Shown in pieces: positions 20,659 through 39,831 of a stretch of DNA of 64,000 nt. Made by a program: the position numbers and the translations under genes. The notes beneath the pieces were generated by a model that saw only the letters and a program-made list of their open reading frames with translations, did not search any database and was not told the DNA's origin. The first letter of the stretch is position 1, and each line of letters opens with the position of its first letter. The DNA is taken from NCBI RefSeq assembly GCF_001552655.1, contig NZ_BCRP01000001.1, forward strand, positions 186,001 to 250,000. The letters are read 5' to 3'. The DNA is from Alicyclobacillus kakegawensis NBRC 103104 (GTDB lineage: Bacteria > Bacillota > Bacilli > Alicyclobacillales > Alicyclobacillaceae).

Positions 20659-20740
20659 TATGCGCCCTCGGCTCCCGCGGCGGTGTCATCCCGCGGCGGA
20701 CAACGCCATGCCAGGTGGGAAATTGATCATTGGAAGCGCG

Positions 20741-20777
20741 GATAACCGGCCGGCCGTGGCCGGTTATCGCATCTTTT
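20741..20777 (+). terminator. Rho-independent terminator after the FAD oxidoreductase
   Basis: Perfect 11-bp stem GATAACCGGCC/GGCCGGTTATC with a six-base loop, then GCATCTTTTCG on the plus strand. Confidence 0.85.
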
Positions 20778-20939
20778 CGTAACCTCAGAGACGCACTCCC
20801 TCCACGCCCCAGTACCTCCCATCGCCGTTTGCGATCGATTTGCCAAAAAGAAATTTACTTATCCTAAATTTCATTGATATAGGAAATGAATATCTATATG
20901 CTTATTTTGTATGAAACTTCTATATCAGGGGAAGGGGAA

Positions 20940-21134
20940 ATGGAAATGCACAAGTGGACTCGTGTGTTGCTCGGCGCAGTCGTCAGCATGGTGTTTGGCG
21001 GGATGACCGCGTTCGCCACCCCACAGCCAAACCGGGATCTGGGATGGCCAGAAAAGCTGGCCATCCATTCCCCGCAACCTGCCGGAGACCTGGAGGAGCC
21101 CGAGTGGCTGAACACACCGGCCGTGCCACAGTGA
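20940..21134 (+). CDS. Small exported peptide with an internal repeat
   Basis: The 64-residue product has a short basic N-terminus, a hydrophobic stretch (VLLGAVVSMVFGGMTAFA) and a likely signal peptidase site after AFA. The roughly 40-residue mature part has two imperfect copies of PQPxxDLxxPExL. The family is not recognised. ATG at 20940 (or 20946) follows GGGGAAGGGGAA. The upstream 100 bases are AT-rich and could hold a promoter. A secreted signal peptide or small wall-associated peptide is possible, but nothing nearby looks like its receptor. Confidence 0.6.
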   Translation: MEMHKWTRVLLGAVVSMVFGGMTAFATPQPNRDLGWPEKLAIHSPQPAGDLEEPEWLNTPAVPQ

Positions 21135-21152
21135 GACTATAGACCTTTCGCG

Positions 21153-21247
21153 TCCCCACTCGCATGCCCGACGCACATACCGAAATGGACAGCCCGCCCC
21201 AGGGAGCGGCCATCCCAGGGCGGGCTGCAGGGGTGCGCGAGTGGGGA
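21153..21247. other. Nested perfect inverted repeats between the exported peptide gene and rho
   Basis: An outer 11-bp perfect stem (TCCCCACTCGC at 21153-21163 with GCGAGTGGGGA at 21237-21247) encloses an inner 10-bp perfect stem (21190-21199 with 21218-21227), whose loop holds a further GGGA/TCCC pair. No U-tract follows on either strand. The rest of the gap up to 21451 shows no gene. Confidence 0.6.
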
Positions 21248-21451
21248 GATCCACGGCGTCCCCCTCGCCCGCCGCGGGCCCCGATGACACCCGGACGCTC
21301 CCTGCCCTTGGCGTACCACGGCATACCGCTGCTGCCAGCGTGCGCGACGCTGCCCACGACCGTCTGCATCCACCGCCGCCAACAAGCCTTTGCGGTGATT
21401 TCGTCTCGCAATCAGATTGTCCACTGTGGAGGATTCATGAAGAGGCGGCCC

Positions 21452-22705
21452 TCAGGCCCTTTTCTCTTTGCGAAGTTCCAAACTCCCCAGGAACTCGGCG
21501 TTTGTCTTGTAGTGCTTGAACTTGCGGATAAACATCTCGGTGAAGTCCTGGTTGTCCCCCATCGACTTGCGGATGGCCCACACCTTTTCCAACTCCTCGC
21601 GGCTCTGCAGGAGCTCCTCCCGGCGAGTGCCCGAGCGACGAATGTCGATGGCCGGGAACACGCGCTTTTCCGCCAGCCTGCGCTCCAGATGCAATTCCAT
21701 GTTGCCCGTTCCCTTGAACTCTTCGTAAATCACGTCATCCATTCGCGATCCGGTCTCCACCAAGGCGGTGGCCAGGATGGTGAGACTCCCACCTTCCTCC
21801 ACGTTGCGGGCGGAACCGAAGAAGCGCTTCGGGCGGTGGAACGCGGCCGGATCGATGCCTCCGGACAACGTGCGGCCGCTCGGCGGCACCACCAGGTTGT
21901 AGGCGCGCGCCAGGCGCGTGATGCTGTCCAGGAGGATGACGACATCCCGCTTGTGTTCCACCAGACGCAGAGCCCGCTCGAGCACCAGCTCCGCCACTTT
22001 GATGTGGTTCTCCGGCACTTCGTCGAACGTGGACGCAATCACTTCACCTTTGACCGAGCGCTGCATGTCAGTCACTTCTTCGGGACGCTCGTCAATCAGC
22101 AAAATCAAAAGCTCGCTGTCCGGATGATTGGCCGCTATGCTGTTAGCGATTTCCTTGAGCAGAACCGTCTTCCCGGCCTTCGGCGGCGCCACAATCAGAC
22201 CGCGCTGTCCGAACCCGATGGGGGTGAACAGGTCAATGATGCGAGTGGCGATTCGGTCCGGCGCTGTTTCAAGGATCATCCGTCGCTGAGGAAACAATGG
22301 AGTGAGAGCGGGGAAGTGAAGTCGTTCGGCAGCCTGCTCAGGGCTCACCTGATTGACAGCTTCCACGTGCAGGAGCCCGAAGTACCGTTCATTTTCCTTC
22401 GGCGGTCTCACCTTCCCAGAGACCAAATCTCCGGTGCGCAGGTCAAATCTTCGAATCTGGGACGCGGCTACGTAGATGTCTTCCGCGCTTGGCAGGTATC
22501 CGACCGGCCTCAGGAACCCGTAGCCGTCTGGCATGATTTCCAGGATGCCCTCTGCGAACATCAGTCCGTCTTTTTCGGCCTGGGCTTTCAAAATCGCAAA
22601 GATGAGTTCGCGCTTCTTCATCGACCCGTAATACGGGATTTGGAACTCTCGCGCGAGTTGGTAGAGTTCTGTCAACTTTTTTGATTCAAGGTCGCGTATG
22701 TCCAA
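21452..22705 (-). CDS. rho: Transcription termination factor Rho
   Basis: Hexameric RNA-dependent ATPase. Domains in order: N-terminal helix bundle ([19 protein letters not shown]), cold-shock-like RNA-binding domain ([20 protein letters not shown]), and the RecA-like motor with P-loop [17 protein letters not shown] near residue 170 and Walker [21 protein letters not shown] at 22705 is proposed because GGGGGA lies eight bases upstream (417 aa, Bacillus 427); a GTG at 22750 has no ribosome site. Confidence 0.95.
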
Positions 22706-22828
22706 TAGGCGTCCCCCACATTCAGCAATCCGCTCGGAGTGCGGACCCACGGCCCGATCCGGCTGCCTGCAGCATCACAAAAATGGCACAAAACAAGGGC
22801 ACCCTGCCTCCTGCGTCGAGCCTTCTGC

Positions 22829-22834
22829 ATTATA
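22829..22834 (-). promoter_or_regulatory. -10 box likely serving rho
   Basis: The minus strand has a perfect TATAAT about 125 bases before the rho start. No matching -35 was found at 17 bases. The long leader would allow the autoregulation known for rho. Confidence 0.45.
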
Positions 22835-22888
22835 TCATGTTTACCCGCACAATTGGATCCTATGCTGCAGCGCGGCAGAATGATTCCG

Positions 22889-23863
<975 letters not shown>

Positions 23864-24078
23864 CCGCATCCGTCTCCTATCCTGGCTCGAATTACACGGA
23901 CCTTTTGCAAGGCACGCTCTTATATAGTACAACATAATTCTCGTTTTGTGACATATCGTTCTCAAGAAGGGACGCCGCTGGAAGCCACCGCCCCGGCCAG
24001 CAGTAAGCGAGAAAAGGAATTGTGCGGACCATTGCCGTAATTAAAGATAGGATAGATGGGACAAGAGGGGATGCCACT

Positions 24079-25251
24079 TTGACACAGACCAAAGAACACC
24101 TTATCAACCCGCGCGTGCGGGACATCCAAATCTCCGGTATCCGCCGCTTCTTTGACCGCATGCGCGAATTCCCGGACGCCATCTCGCTGACCATAGGGCA
24201 GCCGGACTTCCCGACTCCCGCCCACGTCGGCGAAGCGGCAAAGCGGGCGATAGATGCCGGCCGCACGACTTACACCGCAAACGCCGGGATTCTCGAACTG
24301 CGCCGCGCCGCAGCCGGTTTCTTTGCCACGCGCTACGGCCTGCACTACAACCCGGACACCGAGATGATTGTCACGCTCGGCGCCACGCAGGCCATTGACA
24401 TCGCTCTGCGCACCATCCTGGATGTGGACAGCGAGGCCATCCTGCCCGGCCCCGCGTACCCCGGGTACGATCCGCTGATACGCCTGTGCGGCGCCCGGCC
24501 GGTGTACATCGACACCCGCGACACCGGCTTCAAGCTCGCCCCGGACAGGCTGGCGGCGGCGATCAGCCCGCGCACGAGGTGTGTGATTCTGCCCTATCCG
24601 GCCAACCCCACCGGCGCCGTCCTCAGCCGCAGTGAATTGGCGGCCATCGCTGAGGTCCTAAAAGGACGGGACCTGTTCATCCTGGCCGACGAGATCTACT
24701 CCGAGCTGATCTACGACGGGGAGCACCATTCTATCGCCTGTTTCCCCGACTTGCGCGAACAAACGGTGGTCATCAACGGCCTGTCCAAATCGCACGCGAT
24801 GACCGGTTGGCGCATCGGCTTCACGTTGGCCCCCGCCTACCTGACGCGGGAGATGCTCAAGGTCCACCAGTACAACGTCTCCTGCGCCTCCAGCGTCAGC
24901 CAATACGCGGCGCTCGAAGCCTTGCAAAACGGGGCGGACGACTCCCGGCCGATGCGCGAGACGTATGCCAGGCGCCGGGACTACGCCTTCCGGCGCCTGG
25001 TGGATATGGGGTTGGAGGTGGCGCGTCCGGGCGGCGCTTTCTATCTCTTCCCGTCAATCCACCCGTTTGCGCTGTCCTCGTGGGAGTTCGCGGACCGGCT
25101 GCTGAGGGAGGCGGGAGTGGCCGTGGTCCCGGGTGACGCGTTTTCGGAGTACGGGGAAGGCTATGTACGGATTTCCTACGCCTGCGACGAAGCGGTCTTG
25201 GCCGAGGCGTTGAATCGGATGGAGCGCTTTGTGGCCCGGCTGCGGGCGTAA
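24079..25251 (+). CDS. patA: PLP-dependent aminotransferase, PatA type
   Basis: Class I/II aminotransferase of 390 aa that closely follows B. subtilis PatA throughout: NPRVRDIQISGIRRFF at the N-terminus, TIGQPDFPTPAHV, PYPANPTGAVLS (PLP contacts), and the Schiff-base Lys in VINGLSKSHAMTGWRIGF near residue 230. PatA acts on N-acetyl-LL-diaminopimelate, which fits the convergent dapH-dapL pair next door. A TTG at 24079 after AGAGGGG gives the expected length; a GTG at 24022 is less likely. Confidence 0.9.
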   Translation: MTQTKEHLINPRVRDIQISGIRRFFDRMREFPDAISLTIGQPDFPTPAHVGEAAKRAIDAGRTTYTANAGILELRRAAAGFFATRYGLHYNPDTEMIVTLGATQAIDIALRTILDVDSEAILPGPAYPGYDPLIRLCGARPVYIDTRDTGFKLAPDRLAAAISPRTRCVILPYPANPTGAVLSRSELAAIAEVLKGRDLFILADEIYSELIYDGEHHSIACFPDLREQTVVINGLSKSHAMTGWRIGFTLAPAYLTREMLKVHQYNVSCASSVSQYAALEALQNGADDSRPMRETYARRRDYAFRRLVDMGLEVARPGGAFYLFPSIHPFALSSWEFADRLLREAGVAVVPGDAFSEYGEGYVRISYACDEAVLAEALNRMERFVARLRA

Positions 25252-25404
25252 GGCAAGCACGCACAGCGGCGCGCGGGGAAGACAGGCTGCCGCGGCAGGT
25301 AGGGCGCCAAACGCGCCGCCGGGCACGTGAGGCACGCGTACCCGGCCGCGCAGCCGGCGTCGGTGCGAAGGAAACGGCTGGTGGGCGGCGTGGATGCGCC
25401 GACG

Positions 25405-26526
25405 CTACGGCTGACCGGCCCGCCAGCGCAGGTACTCACTGACCACGCGAATGCCCACCGCAATCGCATCTTCGGACGGATCCATGCGGGCGTGGTGCAG
25501 GCCGTAAGGCGAGTCCACGCCGAGCCAGAACAAAAAGCCCGGGATGCGCTCCAGAAAATAGCCGAAATCCTCGCCGGTCATGGCCGCGTCGCACTCCACC
25601 GCCCGCACCTGAGGCGACTGCGCGGCCCAGTCGAGGAACGCGCGGGTCAGGCGGGGGTCGTTGTCCACCTGCCGGTAATTGGCGCCGTAGTCAATGCCGG
25701 CGCGGCAGTCGAAACTCTGCTCGATGCCGCGCACGCACGCCTCGACGCGGGATTTCACGATTTTCATCGTCTCCGCCGACAGGGTGCGGATGGTGCCTTC
25801 AAGACGGGCGTGATCGGCAATAATGTTTTGCTTGCTGCCGCCGTGGATGCGGCCCACGGTGATGACCGCCGCATCGAGGGGATCGACGTTGCGGGCCACA
25901 ATCGTCTGCAGTTGAGTCACCAGGTGGCAAGCCGCCACCACCATGTCGTTCGCCCGATGGGGGAAGGCCGCGTGCCCGCCGGTGCCGTGGAGATCGATAA
26001 ACAGCTCGGAGGTATTGGCGAACAAAATCCCCGGCCGCGTGGCAACGGTGCCCACCGGATATTCGGGAGCGACGTGCAGGGCGATGATTTCATCGGGGCG
26101 CCAGGCCTGGAATTCGGCACTTTGCAGCATCGGGCGGGCGCCGCCCGGCCCCTCCTCGGCCGGCTGAAACACGACCAACAGGTCGTCTGCCAGAGGCTCG
26201 GCGGCAACGGCGGCGAGAACCCCCAGGGCAATCGTCATATGCACGTCGTGCCCGCAGGCGTGCATGTACCCCGCATGCTGGGAGCAAAAGGAATGGCCGG
26301 TCTCTTCCGCCACCGGCAGCCCGTCCATATCGGCGCGATAGGCGAGCGTGCGGCGCGGGGAGCGCCCGCGCACGCGTACCAGGATGCCGGTGCGCCAGGT
26401 TTTGACCTCTAGGTGCTCCTGCGGCAGGGAGCGGATGACCTCAAGGAGCAAGGCCTGGGTGCGCTGCTCGGCGAACCCAGGCTCGGGGATCTGATGCAGA
26501 CGGCGGCGGATCTGGATGAAATCCAT
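25405..26526 (-). CDS. dapL: N-acetyldiaminopimelate deacetylase (M20 family)
   Basis: Removes the acetyl group from N-acetyl-LL-diaminopimelate in the acetylase branch of lysine/cell-wall synthesis. Metal-binding segments of the M20 amidohydrolases are present: [28 protein letters not shown], and near the C-terminus [21 protein letters not shown]. 373 aa; ATG follows AGGAGCG. It lies 23 bases after dapH, as in the ykuQR pair of Bacillus. Confidence 0.93.
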
Positions 26527-26549
26527 GGTGCATCGCTCCTGTGCGGGGA

Positions 26550-27251
26550 TTAGAGCTGGCGCAGTTCCTGCTTGATTTCAATCTTGGCCGGGTCGGTGTC
26601 GCCGATGCTCTTGATGACGCGCGCCGGCACCCCGGCCACCACGACACCGGGCGGCACGTCCTCGGTCACGATGGCGCCAGCCGCCACAACGGATCCCCGG
26701 CCGACAGTGACACCCTCGAGGATGACCGCATTGGCGCCAATCAGCACGTTGTCCTCCACCACCACCGGCTTGGCGGACGGCGGCTCAATCACGCCCGCCA
26801 CGACGGCACCCGCCCCGATGTGGCAGTTGGCGCCAATCAAGCCGCGCCCGCCGATGACCGCGTTCATGTCGACCATCGTCCCGGGGCCGATGACCGCCCC
26901 GATGTTGATGACCGCGCCCATCATGATGACCGCGTTGTCGCCAATTTCAACCTGGTCGCGGATGATGGCGCCCGGTTCAATGCGCGCCCGGATGTTTTTC
27001 AAATCCAGCAGCGGGATGGCGGAGTTGCGCCTGTCCGATTCGACGACAAAATCCTCAATCCGCTCGGCCTCGGCCCTGAGCACCGGCTCGATGTCCTTCC
27101 ATTCTCCGAACACCACGCCCAGCGAGGCGCCCAAAAACGCGCGTACGCCCTCACCAAAATGAAGACCGGCCAGGTCCCCTTTCAGGTACACCTTGACGGG
27201 CGTCTTCTTTTCACTGCTGCGGATAAACTCAATCAACTGATTGGCGTCCAC
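26550..27251 (-). CDS. dapH: 2,3,4,5-tetrahydropyridine-2,6-dicarboxylate N-acetyltransferase
   Basis: Acetyl-CoA-dependent first step of the acetylase branch of diaminopimelate synthesis. The 233-aa product has a DapH-type N-terminal domain ([21 protein letters not shown] in part) and then a left-handed beta-helix of hexapeptide repeats ([20 protein letters not shown]). GTG at 27251 is chosen because AGGAGG is eight bases upstream; an earlier GTG at 27260 overlaps that site. Confidence 0.95.
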
Positions 27252-27377
27252 TCGGTCCACCTCCTATGTATGCAAAAACAGCGGCGAACCCCAGGGGCCT
27301 GCCGCTGCCTGTGCCCCAGCCGGCGGCGCGTTCGCGCCCGGACCCGCCTGCCGGTGCGCCTGGGGCCATGCTTACAT

Positions 27378-27395
27378 GCCCTGGTGCCCCAGGGC
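27378..27395 (-). terminator. Hairpin directly after the fsa stop codon
   Basis: GCCCTGG/CCCAGGGC forms a 7-bp stem with a three-base loop, ending one base from the stop codon. There is no T-run, so termination here is not certain. Confidence 0.35.
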
Positions 27396-28043
27396 TCACT
27401 TCTTCTGCACTTTGCTCCAATCGGCCAGGAAGCGCTCGATGCCCTGGTCGGTCAGCGGGTGCTTAATCATCCGGTCGATGACCGCGTATGGGCAGGTAGC
27501 GATGTGCGCCCCCGCTTTGGCCGCCTCGGTCACGTGCATCGGGTGGCGGATGCTGGCGGCGATGATCTCCGTCTCGATGTCGTGCAGGTCAAAGATGGTG
27601 CTGATGTCGGAGATCAGTTCGACGCCGTTGAAGCTGATGTCGTCCAGACGGCCGATGAACGGGCTGACAAACGTCGCACCGGCGCGGGCGGCCAACAGCG
27701 CCTGGTTGGCACTGAAAACCAGCGTCACATTGGTCTTGATCCCGCGCTTGGCGAACCGGTTGACCGCCTTGAGCCCCTCCGCCGTCAGCGGTACCTTGAT
27801 CACGATGTTCGGGTGAATTTCAGCCAGCGGCAGGCCTTCCTCCACCATCCCATCCGCGTCTAGGCTGACCACCTCGGCGCTGATGGGACCGTCCACAATC
27901 TGCACAATCTCCTTCAGCACTTCGATAAAGTCACGGCCCTCTTTGGCGACGAGGCTCGGGTTGGTGGTGACACCGCTCAGGATGCCCATCTCCGCCGCAT
28001 TGCGGATTTCCGCCACATTGGCTGTATCGATGAAAATCTTCAT
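27396..28043 (-). CDS. fsa: Transaldolase / fructose-6-phosphate aldolase family
   Basis: 215-aa class I aldolase of the short transaldolase type. It begins [17 protein letters not shown], has [13 protein letters not shown], the Schiff-base Lys in [16 protein letters not shown] near residue 85, and [12 protein letters not shown]. Which of transaldolase or aldolase activity dominates cannot be told, though the spo0F-fsa order is that of Bacillus ywjH (tal). ATG at 28043 follows GAGGTGA. Confidence 0.9.
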
Positions 28044-28268
28044 GCACAAGTCACCTCACTCAAGAGTCCGCACTTATCATATCATTTCTTGACGCAGCAG
28101 GGAAAAACCCTGGGGCATAGGCATGGCCCGAGTCGGTTATGTATGCGCGGTGTTTCGATTTCCACGCCTCGGCGTCCGGCCGGCCCCCCGCCTGCGACGC
28201 GTTCCTTCTTGTCTGTCGCGTCCGGGCATTGCCGCCCCGCTCTGCGCCACGCGTGTCCATCGCGAAAA

Positions 28269-28646
28269 CTACGATGAATGGTCCTCCTCGTTCAGGTATG
28301 AGCGCACCACCTGCCGCAGCTCCTCAATGTCGAACGGCTTGGTAAAGTGGGCAAGCGCTCCCATTTCCATCGCTTCTTGAATGAGGTCGAGTTCCCCGTA
28401 CGCGGTCATCATTACGACCTTGCTGGGGATCTCCAACTTGCACAGGTTACGAAGGATTTCGAGGCCATCCATGCCCGGAATTTTCATGTCCAGCAGGATC
28501 AGGTCAGGCGACTCCGTCCTTGCGAGTTCCAACGCCGTCGGTCCATTGTGCGCGAGCAACGTCTGGTAGCCTTCCTTGCTGAGCACCTCTTGCAGCAACA
28601 CACGGATGCCGAACTGGTCATCCACAATCAGGATTTTCTTGCCCAA
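28269..28646 (-). CDS. spo0F: Sporulation phosphorelay response regulator Spo0F
   Basis: Stand-alone receiver domain (125 aa) that carries phosphate from sporulation kinases to Spo0B. It matches B. subtilis Spo0F closely: [14 protein letters not shown] (Asp9/10), the phosphorylated Asp53 in [28 protein letters not shown] and the conserved Lys in [11 protein letters not shown]. The start is a TTG with AAAGGGTGG upstream. Gene order with fsa and pyrG agrees. Confidence 0.95.
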
Positions 28647-28659
28647 TGAAACCCACCCT

Positions 28660-28938
28660 TTAGCGGGCGCGCTGCACGGCCAGAGAACCCGAATGGGGCT
28701 GTCCTGACCTGCGGGCGCCCTCGTCGATGTAATGCGGAGCCCCCCATTCCTCCCTCAGGACAGTCGGTATCTCCAACATTTCGAGATGCAGGGCAGAAAA
28801 TCCTCCCAAACGCGAACCGCGGACGGACTGAAACAGGCGAAAATTGCGCACCGTCTCGCGCGCCTCGCCGGGGACGCGGGCGGATCGACATCCGGGCCGT
28901 ACGGTCATCCGGTCCCGTTCGCTGCCAAGGCGCTGCAC
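28660..28938 (-). CDS. Possible small protein between pyrG and spo0F, unrecognised
   Basis: A reading frame of up to 92 codons ends 14 bases before spo0F on the same strand. The second half ([20 protein letters not shown]) looks protein-like and third positions are about 70 percent G or C, but there is no clear ribosome site for the GTG at 28938, and an inner start is possible. Bacillus has ywjG here; no similarity to it was recognised. The 327-base gap holds nothing else visible. Confidence 0.3.
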
Positions 28939-28973
28939 CCGGCCCGCCCGGTAGAGAGCGGTGCCAGCCCTCT

Positions 28974-30614
<1,641 letters not shown>

Positions 30615-30618
30615 TCAC

Positions 30619-30649
30619 AAAAACAGCGTCCCAGCCGCAGCTGGAACGC
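30619..30649 (-). terminator. Intrinsic terminator in the pyrG leader
   Basis: The minus strand reads GCGTTCCAGC-TGCG-GCTGGGACGC, a continuous 10-bp stem with one G-T pair, followed by TGTTTTTGTG. It lies between the rpoE stop and the pyrG ribosome site. Confidence 0.85.
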
Positions 30650-30676
30650 AAACTGGCGCACCAAGCCAGGGTTCCA
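30642..30676 (-). promoter_or_regulatory. Alternative (antiterminator-type) hairpin in the pyrG leader
   Basis: TGGAAC (30676-30671) can pair with GTTCCA (30647-30642), enclosing a second stem CTGGC/GCCAG (30669-30665 with 30657-30653). The GTTCCA is the upstream arm of the terminator, so this fold and the terminator exclude each other. Confidence 0.6.
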
Positions 30677-30679
30677 ATC

Positions 30680-30705
30680 AGTATTTGCTGTCAGTATTTG
30701 CTGTC
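30680..30705 (-). repeat. 13-bp perfect tandem duplication across the rpoE stop codon
   Basis: The minus strand has two adjoining copies of GACAGCAAATACT. The first ends rpoE (Ser-Lys-Tyr, then TGA formed at the junction); the second lies in the pyrG leader. Confidence 0.9.
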
Positions 30706-31263
30706 TTCGCCATCCAGCGACTCATCCAGGTCTTCTTCCGTCAAAAGCTCTGAGGCCTCGTCTTCGCCGAGGTCCTCGTCACTGTCTGCGTCCAAGTCGT
30801 CCGTCTCTATGTCGTCCGAATCCTGGTCCTCGTCGGTGAGGTCCACATCCTCCAGGTCCTCGTCGTCCACGGCGACTTCATCGTCTTCCAGGACGTCCTC
30901 ATCGTTCTCGTATTCGTCCACATCGACGTCTTCGTCGTCGTCACTGAACGCATCGCCGCTCTTGCGGACAAACCGTTTGTTGGAGAGCGCCTTCTCCGCG
31001 GTTCTGTCCACCGGATACCAGCGCCGCAACCCCCAGGTGTTCTGCCCGAGGCAGACGAATCGCCCGTCGATGTTGATCTCGGTGTACAGCCGCGCGATGA
31101 CCTCCATCACCTCTTCGTCAGTCATGCCGCGCAGCTCCTGAACCTCAGCCACCAGGTCGCGGAAGTAACACGGTTCCTTGCGGACGCGCAGGATCTCCCA
31201 TGCCAGCTCGACCAAGGGCATCTGCAAAATCTCGTCTTGCGACTTGGACAGCGCCACAGCCAT
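30691..31263 (-). CDS. rpoE: RNA polymerase delta subunit
   Basis: Firmicute-specific polymerase subunit that promotes recycling and raises promoter specificity. The 190 residues have the N-terminal HARE-HTH domain (PLVELAWEILRVRKEPCYF; GLRRWYPVDR) and a long, almost purely Asp/Glu C-terminal tail, as expected. The ATG follows GAGGAGGAA. A TATAAT at 31319-31324 precedes it. Confidence 0.95.
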   Translation of the reverse strand: MAVALSKSQDEILQMPLVELAWEILRVRKEPCYFRDLVAEVQELRGMTDEEVMEVIARLYTEINIDGRFVCLGQNTWGLRRWYPVDRTAEKALSNKRFVRKSGDAFSDDDEDVDVDEYENDEDVLEDDEVAVDDEDLEDVDLTDEDQDSDDIETDDLDADSDEDLGEDEASELLTEEDLDESLDGEDSKY

Positions 31264-31318
31264 GCCTATTCCTCCTCGCCGTTCGACGGGGCTTGACTAT
31301 GTCAACTCAAATATGAGC

Positions 31319-31324
31319 ATTATA
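31319..31324 (-). promoter_or_regulatory. -10 box of rpoE
   Basis: Perfect TATAAT on the minus strand about 55 bases before rpoE, with TGTGAC 16 bases upstream as a weak -35. A TTGAC-ATA-GTCAA inverted repeat lies in the leader at 31293-31305. Confidence 0.5.
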
Positions 31325-31390
31325 ACACACGATGCGTCCTGTCACACGTCCCTCTGAAGGAATTTTTTCAGACGCCCACCGCCTCCAAGA

Positions 31391-32530
31391 TCACCTCGTC
31401 AAGTGGCGGGCGATGACCATGCGTTGAATCTGATTGGTCCCTTCGTAAATCTGCGTCACTTTGGCGTCGCGCATATACCGCTCCACCGGATAGTCCTTGA
31501 TATAGCCGTAGCCGCCAAACAACTGCACGGCGTCGGTCGTCACCTGCATCGCGGTGTCGGAGGCAAACAGCTTCGCCATCGACGCCTCCTTCCCGCACGG
31601 CTGCCTCTTGTCGCGCAGCCAGGCGGCATGATAGACCAGCCACTGGGCCGCCTCGACGCGCGTCGCCATGTCGGCCAGCATGAACTGCACCCCTTGCAAC
31701 TCGGACAAAGGCTTGCCGAACTGGCGCCGCGTCTTGGTGTGGGCGCGGGCGGCGTCGAGCGCCGCCCGGGCGATGCCGAGCGCCTGCGCACCAATTCCAA
31801 TGCGGCCCGTATCCAGGAGGCGCATGGCGATGGCAAACCCTTCCCCCTCGCCGCCGAGTCGCTGCGCCGCCGGGATGCGAGCGTCTTCGAACAACAGCTC
31901 GCACGTGGCCGACCCGTTCAGCCCCATCTTCCGCTCCTTCTTGCCGACACGAAAGCCTTGTGTGTCCTTGTCCACGAGGAACGCCGTCACCCCGTGACTG
32001 CCTTGAGCCCCATCCGTCACGGCGAACACGCAGTACACGCCAGCCACGCCGCCATTGGAGATGAACACCTTACTGCCGTTGAGCACGTAGGTGTCCCCTT
32101 CGCGCACCGCCCGTGTACGGATGGATCGCGCGTCCGAGCCTGCATCCGGCTCCGTCAACGCGAACGCGCCGAGACACTCGCCCGAGCACAGCCGCGGCAG
32201 GTACCGCCGCTTTTGTTCGTCGCTGCCAAAGTACAGAATCGCGAGCGTCGCGACCGAGGTGTGCACCGCAAGAATGACTCCGAGCGTCGCCGAAGCGTAG
32301 GAGATTTCCTCCATAGCCGCGATGTAGGAGACAAAATCGGCGCCCACGCCGCCCCATTCCTCCGGGATGGGCAGGCCCAGAAGCCCAATCTCCCCCATCT
32401 GCCGCACCAGGTCGTGCGGAAACTCGTCCCGTTCATCGATTTCCTGTGCGCGGGGGGCAACCACCTCGCGCGCGAAGGACCGCACCAGCTGGCGCATCCG
32501 CTCCTGCTCGGGTGTGAACTGAAAGTCCAT
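31391..32530 (-). CDS. acdA: Acyl-CoA dehydrogenase
   Basis: FAD enzyme of beta-oxidation (379 aa). Signatures: CLGAFALTEPDAGSDARSI (acyl-CoA/FAD contacts), YVLNGSKVFISNGGVAGVY, and near the C-terminus QLFGGYGYIKDYPVERYMRD with the usual region for the catalytic base and ITQIYEGTNQIQRMVIARH. ATG follows GGAGGCGG. It is 74 bases downstream of fadF, the same pair as in B. subtilis. Confidence 0.93.
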   Translation of the reverse strand: MDFQFTPEQERMRQLVRSFAREVVAPRAQEIDERDEFPHDLVRQMGEIGLLGLPIPEEWGGVGADFVSYIAAMEEISYASATLGVILAVHTSVATLAILYFGSDEQKRRYLPRLCSGECLGAFALTEPDAGSDARSIRTRAVREGDTYVLNGSKVFISNGGVAGVYCVFAVTDGAQGSHGVTAFLVDKDTQGFRVGKKERKMGLNGSATCELLFEDARIPAAQRLGGEGEGFAIAMRLLDTGRIGIGAQALGIARAALDAARAHTKTRRQFGKPLSELQGVQFMLADMATRVEAAQWLVYHAAWLRDKRQPCGKEASMAKLFASDTAMQVTTDAVQLFGGYGYIKDYPVERYMRDAKVTQIYEGTNQIQRMVIARHLTR

Positions 32531-32604
32531 CGCTCACCGCCTCCAAAATGCGCCCCGTCCAGCGCCAAACGGCGTTTGCGCATAGGCCACAACCGCAATC
32601 CGCC

Positions 32605-34623
32605 TCAGGCGGTTTCCTCCTTCGGGTTCACCGCCTCTGTGCCCGCAAGCGACATCGCCAGCAGCTCAATCACATCGTAGGTCTGCATCTTATCCTCCGC
32701 GCCGTGCGCCTTGGTGCCGTCTATCAGCATCGTCATGCAGTACGGACAGGCGGTGCCCAGCACGGTGGCGCCGGTTTTGAGCGCCTGCTCCGCCCGCATC
32801 ACGTTGATGCGCGTCCCCGTCTCCTCTTTGAACATCCCGCCGCCGCCGGCGCCGCAGCACATGCTGTGCTGCCGGCTGCGCTCCATTTCCACCAAGCGGA
32901 CGCCGGGAATGGATTCGAGGATGTAGCGCGGCGGATCATAGATGCCGTTGTAGCGGCCCAGGTAGCACGAGTCGTGGTACGTGACCACCTGTTCAACGCG
33001 CCGCTCCGGTTTGATGCGCCCCTCCTGAATCAGTTTCGCCGCAAACTGGGTGCTATGCCAGACCTCCTCCGCCTGCCAGCCAAAGTCCGGATACTCGTTC
33101 CTGAAAGTGTTATACGCGTGCGGATCGGTCGTGATGATTTTCCTTACGCCGTAGGCCTGGAAGATCTCGATGTTGCGCTGCACGAACTCCTGGTACAAAA
33201 ACTCGTTGCCAAGCCGGCGTGCCGAGTCTCCGTCCGACTCCTCCTCGACGCCGAGAATGGCGAAATCGACGCCGGCGGCCAGCAGCACCTTGGCGAACGC
33301 CTGGGCAATCTTCTGCGCCCGCTGGTCGAACGAGGCGGCGGTGCCGACGAAGAACAGGTATTCCGCCTGCCCGTTCACCTCCGCCATCGTGCGCACCGGC
33401 AGGTCTTTGGCCCAGGCGGCCCGCTCGCGGCGGTTGATGCCCCACTCGTTCGATTGCCGTTCCAGATGGGTGAACACCTTGTTCACCTCGGGGCTGGCCC
33501 TGCCCTCGGTCAGCACCAGGTAGCGGCGCAGATCAATGACGTCCTGCACATGTTCGTTGGCCACCGGGCACGCTTCTTCGCAGGCGCGGCAGGTGGTGCA
33601 GGCCCAGACCTCCTCCTCGCTGAAAACCCCCAGCTCAAACAGCGACTGATGGGTCAATGGCTCCGCCCCGACCGCCAGGTTGGCCAGCATGCCGGGACCT
33701 TGCTGGTTTACCGCGTCCTTCATCTTGAGAATCAGGTACTTCGGCGACAACGGCTTCCCCGACAGTGTCGCCGGGCAGTTGATATGGCAGCGGCCGCACT
33801 CGGTGCAGGCATACCCATCCAACAGCTGCTTCCAGGTGAATTGCTCAATCCGCCCGACGCCAAACTCCTCGACGCTCTCGTCCTCCAGGTCGAGCGGCCG
33901 CAGTTTGGGAGGGCCCAGGCGGCGAAAGTACCAGTTGAGCATGGCGCCCAGCATGTGCGAGTGTTTGGAGCGCGGGATGACATAGAGGAAAGTGAAAATG
34001 CAGAACACATGGATCCAGAAGCAGGCCTCGGCGATGGCGAGCAAGGCGCCCCGCCCGAGGCCGCTGAATCCCCCGGCGATGGCACTGACCACCGGGGACC
34101 ACCAGCCCGGGGCCTTGCCCTCCAGGTCGACGTCCGCCCCAGTGGCCACCAGATAGGTCAGGACGATGAGCCCAATCAGCCCGAGGATAAGGCCGCCTTC
34201 CAGGCCCCCGTCAAGGCGCATCGGCCTCAGTCCATAGCGGCGGATGAGCCCGACAATGACAGCCGCCAGCACGCACAGCGACAGAAGTTCCTGGATGAAT
34301 AGGTAGACGTTCGAGTTCCCCCACGGAAAATGCCAACGGGTCAGGTGAAAGACGATGAAATCGAGGTCCCCGAAGACCAGGACCAAAAACCCCCAAAAGA
34401 TAAAAAAGTGGGCCAAACCCGACGGCTGGGCCAACACCTTCTTCTGAAGCAGCACGTTCACGACAAAACTCCGCACACGCTGGCCCGTATCCCCCAGGCG
34501 GCTGCCGTCCGGAGCCCCTGCCAGCACATAACGGACGCGATCCGCAACTGCCTTGACAAACAGATACACGGCCCCAGCAAACAAGAGGAGAAAAATGATT
34601 CCTTGCACAATGTACCAAACCAC
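32605..34623 (-). CDS. fadF: FadF-like membrane iron-sulfur oxidoreductase
   Basis: 672 aa. The N-terminal 240 residues hold about six membrane helices of the nitrate-reductase-gamma-like type; then two 4Fe-4S ferredoxin motifs (CTECGRCHINCP, CTTCRACEEACP), then two CCG domains (YHDSCYLGRYNG, CCGAGGGGMF and a later ACPYCMTM). It resembles B. subtilis FadF, which probably passes electrons from electron-transfer flavoprotein to menaquinone during fatty acid oxidation; the acdA neighbour fits. The start is GTG. Confidence 0.9.
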   Translation of the reverse strand: MVWYIVQGIIFLLLFAGAVYLFVKAVADRVRYVLAGAPDGSRLGDTGQRVRSFVVNVLLQKKVLAQPSGLAHFFIFWGFLVLVFGDLDFIVFHLTRWHFPWGNSNVYLFIQELLSLCVLAAVIVGLIRRYGLRPMRLDGGLEGGLILGLIGLIVLTYLVATGADVDLEGKAPGWWSPVVSAIAGGFSGLGRGALLAIAEACFWIHVFCIFTFLYVIPRSKHSHMLGAMLNWYFRRLGPPKLRPLDLEDESVEEFGVGRIEQFTWKQLLDGYACTECGRCHINCPATLSGKPLSPKYLILKMKDAVNQQGPGMLANLAVGAEPLTHQSLFELGVFSEEEVWACTTCRACEEACPVANEHVQDVIDLRRYLVLTEGRASPEVNKVFTHLERQSNEWGINRRERAAWAKDLPVRTMAEVNGQAEYLFFVGTAASFDQRAQKIAQAFAKVLLAAGVDFAILGVEEESDGDSARRLGNEFLYQEFVQRNIEIFQAYGVRKIITTDPHAYNTFRNEYPDFGWQAEEVWHSTQFAAKLIQEGRIKPERRVEQVVTYHDSCYLGRYNGIYDPPRYILESIPGVRLVEMERSRQHSMCCGAGGGGMFKEETGTRINVMRAEQALKTGATVLGTACPYCMTMLIDGTKAHGAEDKMQTYDVIELLAMSLAGTEAVNPKEETA

Positions 34624-35083
34624 GACGCGGATGCCTCCCCTCCGCCGGCACGCATGAAGCGGGGCGAACGGTGCCGGGATGATAAACGTTTGCCGAACAA
34701 CCTACCGACCGGTCGGTTTAGGTTATGGTATAACACTTCTCCTGAATAGCCAAGGAGAAAATCTGGCTTCGCCCCCCTTGCCTTCGTCAGACTCTTGACT
34801 CTACCATACCATTGGCGGTCTGGAATGTGAACTGAGCAGGCAGCGGCCCCAGGCGTCCGGGCGTCCACGCGAACCAGGTTGGGGCGCTGTCTGGGTTTGA
34901 ACGCTGGTTGGATCCGCTGTTAGGATAGTCCATTCGAACTAGTTGCAACCGAAGCAGGAAAATAGCCCGGTCTCACCTGGTTTGTTGGGCTATTCCCAGG
35001 TACCCTGACGGTGCGTGCGGTGCGCACGAACTGGGCGCAATCACCGGTTGTCCAGTGGGCCTTGCAAAAGAGGAGGTCGTCAA
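34624..35083. other. Divergent intergenic region between fadF and the chemoreceptor gene
   Basis: No gene is seen in 460 bases. It contains the palindromic operator at 34704-34717, a possible fadF promoter, and near the plus-strand gene two competing stems: AATAGCCC (34962-34969) with GGGCTATT (34988-34995), or ACCTGG (34976-34981) with CCAGGT (34997-35002). No U-tract follows either stem. Confidence 0.5.
34704..34717. promoter_or_regulatory. Palindromic TetR-type operator upstream of fadF-acdA
   Basis: ACCGACCGGTCGGT is a perfect 14-bp palindrome, extended by AACC/GGTT on the outside. On the minus strand it lies just after a TATACC -10-like box (34727-34732), a placement suited to repression. 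Its form is like operators of TetR-family fatty acid degradation repressors. Confidence 0.6.
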
Positions 35084-36382
35084 ATGGAAGAACATGCAAA
35101 AGACAAACCATTACCGCAACGATTTCACCGGGTCCGCAGTGAAGTGACCCTGTATTGGCTGGGCGCTTCAGCTGGCGCCATCGCCGCCGACGCCATCTTT
35201 TTCCGGATAGCCTATCGGGAACATGACAATGGATTGGCCTGGTCCGTGGCCTCTGTCATTCTGCTCATCGTCATCCTCGCTCTGCTCATCCAATGGCGGT
35301 TCCGGGCCTTGTTTCGACCGATTCAGGCGCTCTATGACGAAATGATGTACATAAGAACGGGAGACTTTCGCGCGCGGGACCTGGACGCCGCGGGTCGCAC
35401 CGACCTGGTTCAAGTGGTGCAAGCGCTTCAGGAGGCAAAGGCGGGTGTGCGCCGCATCCTGGAGCAGATGCAGCAGGCGGCGAGCGACATCAGCGACGGG
35501 ATAGAGTCCCTGCGTGAAAGCGCACATACCACCAGCCAGGCCTCGGAACAAAACGCGTCCGCGATGACGCAAGTCATGACGGCCGTGGACGAGGAGAGAG
35601 CCCTGACCAACCAAACCGTCTCCGCGATGCAGGAGACCATGCAGAGTGTGGCGTCCATCCAGGCCTTGATTGCCAAGACGCAAGACCTTTCCTCCGCCAT
35701 GATGGAGAACGCGGAGCAAGGGAAGGCGCAGATGTCCGCAGCCACGGACCAGATGAAGAAAATGGAGCAGGCGGTGGCGCGGGTGCGGCAGAGTACACAG
35801 GCGCTGGAACAATCCGCCCACCAGGTGACAGACATTGTGCAGGCGATGCAGTCCATCGCGGCGCAGACGCACATGCTCGCCCTCAACGCCGCGGTCGAGG
35901 CGGCGCGGGCCGGCGGCGAAGGCAAAGGCTTCGCCGTGGTCGCGGCCGAGGTGCGCAAACTCGCGGAACAATCGCGCCGCGACGCGGATACCGTGCGCCA
36001 GGTGGTGACCGACATGGTCAGCCACGTGCAAGCGGCGGCCGCATCCATGGAGGAGGCGGCGGGCACGGTGGTTCACACGTCGCAAGCGGTGCGCGCCTCC
36101 GAAAACACGTTTCTGGGACTGGCCCAGGACGTGCTGGAACTCCAGGATGGGATGCGGACCATCGAAACGGCGGCGCAAGCCATCCGCAGCCACACCGAAC
36201 GGGTTGCGGAACAGATGCCGGTGCTGCAGAAGGCGGCCGATGTGCAGTCGCAATCGGTGGCGGAAGTCGCCGCCGCAAGCGAAGAGCAGGTGGCGATGAT
36301 GGAAGAAGTGGCCTCGACGGTGGACGAGATCAGCCGCATGGCCGGTCAGTTGCGCGCCGCGGCAGGACAGTTTCAGTGGTGA
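35084..36382 (+). CDS. Methyl-accepting chemotaxis protein with minimal outer region
   Basis: 432 aa. Two membrane helices (residues about 20-45 and 55-75) are separated by only a few residues (AYREHDNG), so there is no extracellular ligand domain. A HAMP-like linker and the cytoplasmic signalling coiled coil follow, with the tip LALNAAVEAARAGGEGKGFA and VVAAEVRKLAEQSRRDA. It may sense an intracellular or membrane cue. ATG follows AGGAGGTCGTCAA. Confidence 0.9.
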   Translation: MEEHAKDKPLPQRFHRVRSEVTLYWLGASAGAIAADAIFFRIAYREHDNGLAWSVASVILLIVILALLIQWRFRALFRPIQALYDEMMYIRTGDFRARDLDAAGRTDLVQVVQALQEAKAGVRRILEQMQQAASDISDGIESLRESAHTTSQASEQNASAMTQVMTAVDEERALTNQTVSAMQETMQSVASIQALIAKTQDLSSAMMENAEQGKAQMSAATDQMKKMEQAVARVRQSTQALEQSAHQVTDIVQAMQSIAAQTHMLALNAAVEAARAGGEGKGFAVVAAEVRKLAEQSRRDADTVRQVVTDMVSHVQAAAASMEEAAGTVVHTSQAVRASENTFLGLAQDVLELQDGMRTIETAAQAIRSHTERVAEQMPVLQKAADVQSQSVAEVAAASEEQVAMMEEVASTVDEISRMAGQLRAAAGQFQW

Positions 36383-36753
36383 GGATCAGCCCTGTTGATG
36401 CCTTCTGTCCCTGCCCGCCGACGCAGCAACTCGTCGGCGCGCTGGCGCAACAGGGCGCCAAATTTCCCGCACTGCGCCGTCGTGGCGCGGCCGAGATCGC
36501 CGAGGAGGTACTCGTGCAGGCCCACTTCCCGCGCCACCTCGGCGCGCATGCGCTCCATCAGGCGCGCGCGCTCCGCATCCAGGGCCTCCCGCTCGTTGGC
36601 TGGGCGCGCGGCGCTTTCGGCACGCCACTTCCCCGCAACGAAGTCCTCGACGGGGCGCGTGCCGCCGGCCCGCCTGCCGTCGGCGCGGGCCGGGCCACGC
36701 TGTGGCCCCCGCGCGGACCGGGGTTGGACCGGTGTGTTTTCGCGCTCGCTCAT
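36373..36753 (-). CDS. Basic small protein with an alpha/beta-SASP-like C-terminal region
   Basis: 126 aa. The first 60 residues are rich in Arg, Pro and Gly. The rest (MRAEVAREVGL, then TTAQCGKFGALL, then RADELL) resembles the spore DNA-binding alpha/beta small acid-soluble proteins, including the EVAREVG segment that corresponds to the germination protease site. The usual GG doublet is replaced by GA and the last helix is shorter. It is convergent with, and overlaps by ten bases, the chemoreceptor gene, and follows the YwiB-like gene. Confidence 0.55.
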   Translation of the reverse strand: MSERENTPVQPRSARGPQRGPARADGRRAGGTRPVEDFVAGKWRAESAARPANEREALDAERARLMERMRAEVAREVGLHEYLLGDLGRATTAQCGKFGALLRQRADELLRRRAGTEGINRADPHH

Positions 36754-37253
36754 CGCGCATCCTCCGAACCCTCGCTCGCACGCGCGCTCGCGCACGCATC
36801 CAGCGGCTCCAGTGTGAACACCAGGTCAATCCGATTGGCCTGCGCTGGGTCCGCGTCCCGCCCCAGCCCCATCCGGCAGCGGACGCGCGCCTCCCCGCCG
36901 TCGGGGCGCAGCCGCACGTCCATGGCCTCCACGGCCACGGCGACCGGGATGGCCCGCCCTTGCACACGCAGCTCGGAATACGTGGTGCGGCCGGGGACAA
37001 AGCGGTGTGTCCAGGTGACCGGCCCCCGGCGCGCCCAGGTCAGCGCGCCCGGCTCCAGCTTGAGGGCGCTTTGCCCGGCCGGCCCGCCCTGTGCGGCCTC
37101 GACCGGCTCCTGATAGACAAACCAGTGCGATCCGCCCTTCTGCCGCCACCGTGCGTCTTCGATGCACGCTTCGAGGGCGTCGGAACCCGACTCGACGCGC
37201 CGCCAGCGGATGCGCACGCGCCGTTCGGGGGCGCCTTCCTCATACCACCACAT
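36750..37253 (-). CDS. YwiB-like protein (DUF1934)
   Basis: 167 aa. The pattern of beta-strands with WFVYQEP, LKLEPGALTWARRGPVTWTH and RFVPGRTTYSEL fits the DUF1934 calycin-like family of Firmicutes, whose role is not known. ATG at 37253 has AAGGGG about 11 bases upstream. It overlaps the following gene by four bases. Confidence 0.75.
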   Translation of the reverse strand: MWWYEEGAPERRVRIRWRRVESGSDALEACIEDARWRQKGGSHWFVYQEPVEAAQGGPAGQSALKLEPGALTWARRGPVTWTHRFVPGRTTYSELRVQGRAIPVAVAVEAMDVRLRPDGGEARVRCRMGLGRDADPAQANRIDLVFTLEPLDACASARASEGSEDAR

Positions 37254-37379
37254 GCTGAATCTACCCCTTGTCCATCCGCCGGCAATGCGCCATCCGCGGC
37301 CTTTTCCGTTGCCGAGGCCCTGCCGTTTCCGCCTGAGCCGCCAGCCTTGTCCTCACGCGCCCGAACGGCTGCAGGAAGC

Positions 37380-38291
37380 CTACGCTGTGTGAACAAACGC
37401 GAGCAGGGCCTCACGCACCAGCTTCGCCGCCAGGATTTGCGTCTGCTCGGACGGATCGATCAGCGGCGAGGTCTCCACCAGGTCGAATCCCACCACGTTC
37501 AGCTTCGCCAACTCGCACATGACCGCAAACCCTTCGCGCGGGGTGATGCCGCCGTGCTCGGCCGTGCCCGTGCCGGGGGCGTGAGCAGGATCGAACACGT
37601 CGATATCCCAGGTCACGTACACCGGGTGGCCCATCAGCTCGGGCAACACCTGTCGCAACGGCGTGAGCACGTCAAATGGGAAAAAGTGGGTATGCTCGCG
37701 GGCCCACCGAAACTCCTCGCGCGTTCCGGAGCGGATACCGAACTGGTAGACCTTCTCCGGGCCAATGGCATCGCACACCTTGCGGATGACGGTGGCGTGC
37801 GAGTACGCCTCGCCCTCGTACGACTCACGCAGATCCGTATGCGCGTCCAGGTGCACCACGCGCAAATCGGGGTACGCCTCCCAGGCGGCGCGCAGGGCGC
37901 CCCAGGAGGCCAAGTGCTCACCGCCCAAGCCGAGCGGAAACTTGCCGGCTGTGTACAACGTGCGCACGTACTGGTAAATCTTCTCCACGCTCGCCTGCGG
38001 ATTGCCGAAAGGCAGCGGGATGTCCCCGGCGTCAAAGTACCGGATGTCCGAGAGGTCGCGGTCGAGGTATGGGCTGTACTCCTCAAGCCCAATCGAGACC
38101 TCGCGGATGCGGGCCGGTCCGAGACGCGTGCCGGATCGAAAGGAGACCGTCCAGTCCATGGGCATGCCGTAGATGACCGCTTGCGCGGCGGCGAAGTCGT
38201 CGCTGGCGGCGATGAACACGTTGCCGCTGTACGCAGGGTCAAACGGACGGCCGATGCCGCCCGGCTGCCCGGGTGCCCAGGGATGGCTCAT
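37380..38291 (-). CDS. speB: Agmatinase (ureohydrolase family)
   Basis: Splits agmatine to putrescine and urea. The binuclear manganese site residues are seen in GLGGEHLASWG, VVHLDAHTDLRESYEG and VTWDIDVFDPAHAPGTGTAE. 303 aa. ATG 38291 overlaps the speE stop (ATGA) and follows GAGGAG. Clustering with speE supports polyamine synthesis rather than arginase. Confidence 0.93.
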   Translation of the reverse strand: MSHPWAPGQPGGIGRPFDPAYSGNVFIAASDDFAAAQAVIYGMPMDWTVSFRSGTRLGPARIREVSIGLEEYSPYLDRDLSDIRYFDAGDIPLPFGNPQASVEKIYQYVRTLYTAGKFPLGLGGEHLASWGALRAAWEAYPDLRVVHLDAHTDLRESYEGEAYSHATVIRKVCDAIGPEKVYQFGIRSGTREEFRWAREHTHFFPFDVLTPLRQVLPELMGHPVYVTWDIDVFDPAHAPGTGTAEHGGITPREGFAVMCELAKLNVVGFDLVETSPLIDPSEQTQILAAKLVREALLAFVHTA

Positions 38292-39121
38292 CCCCGAGTC
38301 AACTCCTCGACAAAGGGCGGCAGGGCGAACGCGGCTTGGTGCACCTGCGGCGAATAATACTTGCAATCCGTCACGCGGGCCGGCTGGGGCGCGAGCGGGT
38401 TATACTCCTTGCTGCCGATGGTGAAGCTCCACATGCCGGTTGGATAGGTCGGGACATACGCCAGGTACAGGTGCGTCTTCGCGAATACGCTCGAGACGTC
38501 GCTGAAGACCTGGCGAATGAGGTCCTGGTTGGTAAACGGAGATTCGGTCTGGGCGACAAACAGGCCGTCCTCACGCAGCGCCCGGTGGACCGCCTGGAAG
38601 AACGTCCTGGCGAAGAGACCGACCGCGGGGCCGACGGGATCCGTCGAGTCCACCAGTATGACGTCAAACTCGCCGGGGTGCTGCTCGACGTAGCGGATGC
38701 CGTCGGTCACCTGCACATCGACGCGGGCATCCGAGAGGCCCTTTGCGATGTGCGGGAAGTATCGCTTGGACGCTTCAATGACGCGCCCGTCGATCTCCGC
38801 CAGCACGACGCGTTCGACCGAGGGGTGTTTGAGGATCTCCCTCACCGCGCCTCCGTCGCCGCCGCCAACCACCAGGACACTTTTGGGATTGGGATGCGTG
38901 TGCATCGGCACGTGGGCAATCATTTCATGATAGACAAACTCGTCCTTGTCGGTGGTCATCACGCAACCGTCGAGGACAAGCAGGTTACCATATTGGGCGG
39001 TTTCGTAAACGGCGAGCGACTGAAACTCCGTCTGCTCGCTGTGAAGGGTCCGGTTGACCCGAAGTCCGAGCGACAGGTTCTCGTTCTGCAGCTCGGTGAA
39101 CCACAGTTCCGGCTTCGGCAT
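38288..39121 (-). CDS. speE: Spermidine synthase
   Basis: Aminopropyltransferase, putrescine to spermidine. 277 aa with ELWFTELQNENLSLG at the N-terminus, the nucleotide-binding VLVVGGGDGGAVREILKH near residue 85 and DVILVDSTDPVGPA near 150. ATG at 39121 follows AGGAGG; earlier starts lie before this site. Confidence 0.96.
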   Translation of the reverse strand: MPKPELWFTELQNENLSLGLRVNRTLHSEQTEFQSLAVYETAQYGNLLVLDGCVMTTDKDEFVYHEMIAHVPMHTHPNPKSVLVVGGGDGGAVREILKHPSVERVVLAEIDGRVIEASKRYFPHIAKGLSDARVDVQVTDGIRYVEQHPGEFDVILVDSTDPVGPAVGLFARTFFQAVHRALREDGLFVAQTESPFTNQDLIRQVFSDVSSVFAKTHLYLAYVPTYPTGMWSFTIGSKEYNPLAPQPARVTDCKYYSPQVHQAAFALPPFVEELTRG

Positions 39122-39162
39122 GGGCGCGCCTCCTAGCACAGTGCAGTCAAATTGCCGTCCGT

Positions 39163-39171
39163 ATTATACCA
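39163..39171 (-). promoter_or_regulatory. Extended -10 promoter of speE-speB
   Basis: TGGTATAAT on the minus strand about 45 bases before speE, the same extended -10 form as at upp; the -35 region is poor. Confidence 0.55.
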
Positions 39172-39504
39172 AACTGTGAAGGTGAGAATGTGACAGGTGC
39201 GGCAGAGTTCGGAGGAGACACGTCCATTGTCGGCAGTCAGACCGTGTAGGAGTGGAGGCTCTTCAAACTCGCACACATCCGGATCGCCCTGGAGCACTTG
39301 GTTCGGGTTGAAGCCTTCCGCAAGAACTGACTCGTACCCAAGGAGTCGACGTTTCTTTGCCTTTCTGGTTCAGGAACCAGGGTGAAATAGGGATTCATGG
39401 TGCTGCAATCCCCGATTGAGGCTTGCGGCACTTCATGGTTTGCTCTTGAAGGGACGGGTCTATATCCGCCTCCATAACCCCCGCACTGCAGCGGTGGCCA
39501 TCCG
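39172..39504. other. Gap between the speE promoter and feoC, with possible decayed coding
   Basis: No intact gene. On the minus strand two short open pieces in different frames look protein-like: MNPYFTLVPEPERQRN near 39395, and, in the next frame towards 39190, NPNQVLQGDPDVCEFEEPPL. They could be a frameshifted relic, but no family was recognised. Confidence 0.3.
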
Positions 39505-39786
39505 TCATCTCGCCACATCCCCGGCCCGCCCATAGGCGTGCGCCACCTTGCGCAGCGACGTCTCGTCCTCCATGCACAGGCCCTGGAACGCGCAGCGGTT
39601 GCAGTGGTGCGTCGGGTTGGCGCAGTGCTCAATCTGCCCCACCGCGTTCTCCCTCAGGCGGCCCATGCGCTTGAGCTGTTCAATCCCCGCCCGCACCAGT
39701 TCCGGCGACACACCGACAAACGACGCCAGCTCGTCCATCGTCCACACCCTGCACTGGGTAAACGCCGCTTCGATCTTTGACAGCAC
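39505..39786 (-). CDS. feoC: FeoC-like iron-sulfur winged-helix regulator
   Basis: About 93 aa: a helix-turn-helix half (MDELASFVGVSPELVRAGIEQL) followed by a Cys cluster HHCNRCAFQGLCM that could bind Fe-S. Placement directly after feoB supports a FeoC role in tuning ferrous uptake. GTG at 39786 has GAGGGG eight bases upstream. Confidence 0.8.
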   Translation of the reverse strand: MLSKIEAAFTQCRVWTMDELASFVGVSPELVRAGIEQLKRMGRLRENAVGQIEHCANPTHHCNRCAFQGLCMEDETSLRKVAHAYGRAGDVAR

Positions 39787-39831
39787 CGCCGTAGCCCCTC
39801 TCACCCAGCCGGCCAACCGGCATTACTCGCT

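Follow-up and report, generated by a model that had tools for sequence, protein, structure and literature searches.

The window (the whole stretch of DNA analysed, 64,000 nucleotides) belongs to a genome of 3.42 Mb that falls within the family of Alicyclobacillus, in an order which we take to be Alicyclobacillales. Its nearest named pyrG matches are 76-78% identical. On the minus strand, pyrG, the gene for the essential CTP synthase, follows rpoE, the gene for the delta subunit of RNA polymerase, after a spacer of 88 nt (Table 1); rpoE is the upstream neighbour of pyrG in Bacillus subtilis too. Below, genera and families are referred to by arbitrary working labels (g and f numbers).

Table 1. 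Genes and sequence features at the rpoE-pyrG junction (window positions)
Feature	Position	Strand	Remarks
pyrG, CTP synthase	28974..30602	-	NCBIfam TIGR00337, 835 bits; sole match found in genome; start codon 30602-30600
Shine-Dalgarno-like AGAGGAG	30607..30613	-	from sequence; precedes the pyrG start codon
U-tract tail TGTTTTTGTG	30616..30625	-	directly after the hairpin and conserved along with it
Terminator hairpin GCGTTCCAGC-TGCG-GCTGGGACGC	30626..30649	-	10 pairs, 7 G-C; widely conserved element
Inner hairpin CTGGC-TTGGTGC-GCCAG	30653..30669	-	stem 30669-30665 / 30657-30653
Competing arm UGGAAC (UUGGAAC from 30677)	30671..30676	-	pairs with 30647-30642; 3/3 genomes of the genus
13-nt tandem duplication CAGCAAATACTGA	30678..30703	-	spans the rpoE stop; window genome only among 3 of the genus
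rpoE, RNA polymerase delta subunit	30691..31263	-	NCBIfam TIGR04567, 108 bits; upstream gene; stop codon 30693-30691

The strong intrinsic terminator that the original prediction placed between the two genes was confirmed as a 10-bp stem followed by a U-tract. Among the minus-strand terminator-like sites listed for positions 20001-40000 it has the longest stem and the most G-C pairs. The end of the stem lies 23 nt from the pyrG start codon, ribosome-binding site included. This leaves no room for a promoter, and pyrG must therefore be transcribed through the terminator. A promoter scan of positions 30400-31500 detected no sigma-70-type promoter, and a second scan with a bonus for extended -10 elements was also negative over the 200 nt preceding the hairpin. 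Since no promoter was found in the spacer and none fits behind the stem, transcription of pyrG in the window probably arrives from rpoE or from further upstream.

The folding energy of the whole 103-nt leader is ordinary (z -1.16; 24 of 200 shuffles fold as well). Over 55 leaders, the energy of the hairpin averages -16.0 kcal/mol (sd 1.8, range -20.3 to -10.0). The case for a function of the leader comes from comparison between sequences and not from energy.

Conservation of the terminator hairpin in two families

A pyrG match was present in 40 of the 41 family genomes, and the leaders of those 40 were compared. In the sister family pyrG was matched in 17 of 18 genomes; in one of these the match was limited to a C-terminal piece, and the leaders of the other 16 were read. 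The hairpin stands at pyrG in 38 of the 40 family genomes and in all 16 sister-family leaders. In the family its consensus is GCGUUCUGG-loop-CCAGAACGC with the tail UGUUUUUGUGUG, while the sister family has GCGUUCUGGC-loop-GCCAGGACGU and the tail UUAUUUUGUG; the window carries the CGUUYYRG hairpin and U-tract immediately before pyrG. Three named Alicyclobacillus loci agree exactly with family members in their leaders: L002 with L100 (g2), L003 with L098 (g2) and L004 with L116 (g5).

In both families the sequence of the terminator is conserved, not merely its fold. When each of the 24 genera with the hairpin is represented by one sequence, mean pairwise identity is 0.93 in the 5' arm, 0.81 in the 3' arm and 0.62 in the tail, while the 20-nt flanks before and after the hairpin are near chance (0.28 and 0.29). 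The recognition rule demanded a 5' arm containing GTT and a 3' arm to match it, so the invariance of the required bases is partly built in; only two of the 56 leaders failed it. These are the two family genomes without the hairpin (L086 and L112), both of genus g9, and neither contains GAACG within 220 nt of the start codon. The hairpin is therefore dispensable. By eye, other inverted repeats are visible in the spacers of both g9 genomes. Between rpoE and pyrG, the sequence GGGACAAG occurs at most 160 nt before the pyrG start in four of the 56 leaders (L086, L088, L103 and L113, from four genera), which may be chance.

Stem positions pair in 99.7% of cells, and three pairs have changed on both sides. 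When two-sided changes are counted by cells none of 500 shuffles reaches the observed value, and when they are counted by pairs 23 of 500 do, so that the sequences carry a modest covariation signal in the stem. On a PyrG tree of the 55 leaders, the 5'-arm columns C, G, U, U and the last G never change. At the three U sites, the 3' side has changed 12 times and the 5' side twice (binomial p 0.013). Part of this asymmetry is expected from any such hairpin, because a change from U-A to U-G keeps the pair and a change from U-A to C-A does not. The asymmetry between the arms is moderate evidence that the terminator 5' arm may have a second partner.

Loop length varies from 5 to 12 nt among the leaders (in the 9-pair register), which argues for an RNA element rather than a DNA operator, and the latter reading was dropped for this reason. 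A metabolite riboswitch was also rejected: there is no conserved unpaired block or aptamer, and the flanks are at the identities given above over the 24 genera.

The stem pattern has one match in the window's own genome, at pyrG, and the covariance model R1 (E up to 0.1) likewise matched this genome at the pyrG hairpin only. Of the order genomes listed, 34 of 39 contain a single R1 match, which for one of them (G030) is not at pyrG. A regulon of several targets was rejected on the strength of the single stem-pattern match and these single R1 matches. With a broader pattern, more matches appeared in the family; judged by eye, most of these do not form a full stem. The R1 search covered a sample of 398 genomes of the class, and 173 genomes had a match. 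Of these, 18 stronger places were checked (17 outside the order and the one in G030); none has a PyrG motif within 1.5 kb, several resemble ordinary terminators, and a spread beyond the order was rejected. Outside the order, genome G147 (R1 27 bits) carries the hairpin at pyrG (L187), together with a promoter-like site of its own. No such hairpin was seen by eye in the pyrG leaders of 13 other genomes of its order, and its presence in G147 may reflect either descent or convergence.

Competing folds upstream of the terminator

The upstream two-part hairpin that had been predicted to borrow the 5' arm of the terminator is real: both folds were computed, and the arm is found in all three genomes of the window's genus. 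Upstream of the terminator, TGGAAC is complementary to GTTCCA within the terminator 5' arm, and the helix between them encloses a small inner hairpin. The terminator is excluded by the outer helix only, the inner hairpin being compatible with it. The genus thus has two mutually exclusive folds, as in a cis antiterminator. When the leader was folded at growing lengths, the competing fold formed first (-14.1 kcal/mol at 38-42 nt) and was overtaken by the terminator once the 3' arm of the latter had emerged. At the full length of 75 nt the terminator is the more stable fold by 7.6 kcal/mol (-31.0 vs -23.4), and readthrough would therefore need a kinetic or an outside cause.

Comparison within the genus, albeit of three genomes, indicates that the competing arm is under constraint. 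Between L083 and L084 there are 4 differences in the 75 bases of the leader, compared with 100 in 252 fourfold sites of pyrG (p 1e-9). Three of these four differences sit in the 7-nt inner loop (p 0.002), the inner stem is unchanged, and so are all 21 upstream bases outside the inner loop (p 6e-5). Leaders L082 and L083 differ at a single base. The CAGCAAATACTGA duplication that spans the rpoE stop is absent from both other genomes of the genus; because of it, the competing arm in the window is shifted 13 nt from the stop codon.

For the other genera, the best duplex of the 5' arm with the 57 nt upstream was compared with 500 dinucleotide shuffles of each leader, and genus medians (55 leaders, 25 genera) were combined by Fisher's method. 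Upstream complements proved to be at chance (p 0.73), and a cis antiterminator general to the family was rejected. Complements resembling GAACG or GGACG had been picked by eye in several genera and were unsupported by the shuffle test. In sister-family leader L133, merely ~10 nt separate the likely start from the terminator arm, which together with the chance-level complements leaves the upstream arm unsupported as a general mechanism. Of the two predicted pairings, then, that of the terminator is kept in related genera and that of the competing arm is kept within the genus, but elsewhere the competing arm is at chance.

In the pyr operon (PyrR), T-box and trp attenuators, terminator and antiterminator are mutually exclusive. 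The window's genus resembles these classical systems in having an upstream arm that competes for the terminator 5' arm. Unlike them, it has no known ligand or protein site that was recognised, and its competing arm is not common to other genera above chance.

Across genera, the upstream regions form somewhat more stable structures than their shuffles do (Fisher p 0.007). In genus g2, which includes Alicyclobacillus, 9 of 15 leaders (L090, L092, L094, L098-L100, L104, L107 and L109) have a hairpin across the rpoE stop, a short distance ahead of the pyrG terminator (each p 0.003 to 0.056). In it, the GA-rich end of rpoE forms a stem with CU-rich sequence just after the stop codon, which itself lies in or beside the loop.

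Promoters and the B. subtilis type of pyrG leader

CTP control of pyrG in B. subtilis is the standard example of regulation by untemplated G addition, in which a G-run pairs with a C/U-rich terminator arm. CTP-sensitive reiterative transcription at this leader was reportedly described by Meng, Turnbough and Switzer in 2004, a study cited in PMC4448216. The extra Gs are added at the start under pyrimidine starvation and prevent attenuation (PMC4448216, PMC4403831). The window gave no match to a start rule that asks for a -10 element followed by GGGC, and its terminator arm, GCGUUCCAGC, is not C/U-rich. Doubt about the B. subtilis mechanism, already voiced in the original prediction, was borne out by the missing GGGC start and by a spacer in which no promoter was found. 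With neither a GGGC start nor a C-rich arm, the window fails two defining features of the B. subtilis type. One feature is present, namely an intrinsic terminator between the source of transcription and pyrG. The window resembles the B. subtilis leader (RF02371) in the gene concerned and in the place of its terminator, and differs from it in start, arm, detected spacer promoter and hairpin sequence. Rfam, including RF02371 (PyrG_leader), had no match in the window at the gathering score. RF02371 also had none in six order members at E up to 1, but only one of six classic-looking controls was matched, at a sub-gathering score, which makes the Rfam result a weak negative.

The start rule was matched by 4 of 40 family leaders, by none of the 16 sister-family leaders and by 21 of 28 other Bacilli leaders, of which one (L188) is a false match at a ribosome-binding site, leaving 20. 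The 28 remain from 30 control genomes picked from the R1-searched set, after two (L215 and L216) with no readable pyrG start had been dropped. The four family leaders (L089, L093, L119 and L097), all among the 38 that bear the hairpin, have an extended -10 followed by GGG(G)C and come from genera g4 and g13. The terminator loops of these genera hold UCCU or UCCC next to CC, and the two genera may combine both designs. A further, weak promoter candidate in the family (L121) has no GGG(G)C start. Folding L097 with a G-run of 12 lowered the terminator pair probability from 0.98 to 0.01, while in the three g4 leaders it stayed at 0.76 at least; the test discriminates poorly, since a G-run of 10 leaves the terminator intact in three classic controls as well.

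In the sister family a clear promoter without a GGGC start lies just upstream of the hairpin in 12 of 16 leaders (L123-L138 except L128, L131, L134 and L137). It consists of TTGACA and TACGAT or TACTAT; from the end of the -10 to the arm there are 16 to 33 nt, and starts are mostly around AAGUCAA or AGGCAAA. Because the hairpin is downstream of the TTGACA promoter in these twelve leaders, it lies inside the pyrG leader. The sequence GCAAGTCAA follows the -10 in six of the 16 (L123, L124, L126, L129, L133 and L138), so that the bases transcribed first are conserved as well.

A putative attenuator and its alternatives

The claim that the terminator belongs to an attenuator controlling pyrG stands as far as layout is concerned, because pyrG can be reached only through a terminator that is conserved in the family and the sister family; the competing arm, proposed as its switch, is not a general mechanism. 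On balance we lean towards a lineage-specific transcription attenuator of pyrG, judging from the sequence comparisons. Transcription from rpoE or further upstream in the window's genus, and from a promoter just upstream in most sister-family leaders read, would meet the intrinsic terminator before pyrG, and the fraction that reads through would set the expression of CTP synthase. Readthrough would be regulated, and the conserved 5' arm CGUUYYRG would be read a second time by the polymerase, by a protein or by a second RNA segment. In the window's genus the added UUGGAAC arm, next to its small hairpin, would act kinetically as a local addition, pairing with the 5' arm first and thereby delaying or preventing the terminator. 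The signal is likely CTP, by analogy, given the gene and the B. subtilis precedent.

More tentatively, the terminator hairpin might itself be the sensor, its 5' arm being read by a trans-acting factor or in a CTP-dependent step of the polymerase, with lineage-specific additions placed in front. Such additions would be the competing arm in the window's genus and the GGGC start in two other genera. If this were true, it would amount to an undescribed kind of CTP-synthase attenuator.

The main and simplest rival to a regulated attenuator is an unregulated leaky terminator that fixes the pyrG:rpoE ratio and whose sequence is kept by selection on terminator strength. It is compatible with all results, and we regard it as a serious possibility, if not a probable one. 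In its favour, no antiterminator general to the 25 genera was found; the hairpin energies given above for the 55 leaders also agree with it, and toggling between U-A and U-G explains part of the arm asymmetry. Strength alone, however, does not require a near-invariant 5' arm in 24 genera. Where pyrG has its own promoter before the hairpin, as in the twelve sister-family leaders, a fixed stop would in our opinion be wasteful, and in B. subtilis an attenuator occupies the same position (PMC4448216 and PMC4403831). The sister-family promoter also bears on two other alternatives. In one of them the hairpin would simply end the rpoE mRNA, and pyrG would have a promoter of its own farther down or within the U-tract region. 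This seems hardly credible: most of the family leaders inspected do have an acidic-ended, rpoE-like open frame ahead of the hairpin, but 23 nt including the ribosome-binding site are too short for a promoter, and the promoter of the sister family precedes the hairpin.

Coupling to rpoE translation, in which a ribosome at the rpoE stop would cover the competing arm and let the terminator form, draws on the position of UUGGAAC, which begins 1 and 3 nt past the stop codon in L083 and L084, on the g2 hairpins over the rpoE stop and on the better-than-shuffled folding of upstream regions. The duplication in the window nevertheless puts the arm 13 nt farther from the stop, in twelve sister-family leaders a separate promoter follows rpoE, and the g2 hairpins as folded are situated upstream of the terminator arm and offer it no competition. 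Such coupling is unlikely. Less likely still is the B. subtilis mechanism itself, in which Gs are added reiteratively at a GGGC start when CTP is low and the G-run pairs with the terminator. It fits the starts and loops of genera g4 and g13 and the loss of terminator pairing in folded L097, but the g4 terminators hold with 12 Gs in a test that also fails to separate controls, within the two families the start rule matches only those four leaders, and the window has no detected promoter, G-run start or C-rich arm.

That the sequence of the stop signal is nearly unchanged in almost all relatives examined suggests that a leader switch unlike that of B. subtilis may control CTP production in these bacteria. 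The family and the sister family have a terminator in the same place, with a different, near-invariant sequence and mostly without a G-run start. This allows a clean comparison on the question of how a CTP-synthase leader might respond to its product in the absence of reiterative transcription. Alicyclobacillus is culturable, and features of the two designs seem to occur together in two genera of the family. A literature search that included Alicyclobacillus and pyrG returned, by title and start of abstract, nothing on this element. PMC11109978, whose main text does not contain the word Alicyclobacillus, mentions a 'pyrG motif', a structured-motif candidate at the same gene whose description is confined to the supplement.

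Other pyrG leaders without GGGC starts were noted by eye in families f14 and f29 (L273, L188, L189, L274 and L276) and f37 (L191, L275 and L277-L281), so the pyrG leaders of Bacilli show more variety than the B. subtilis example. They are comparable in having a short leader behind a sigma-A-like promoter, several with a terminator. Unlike the window, they have unrelated hairpins and start regions resembling AGGAUA or AGGUAUUUU.
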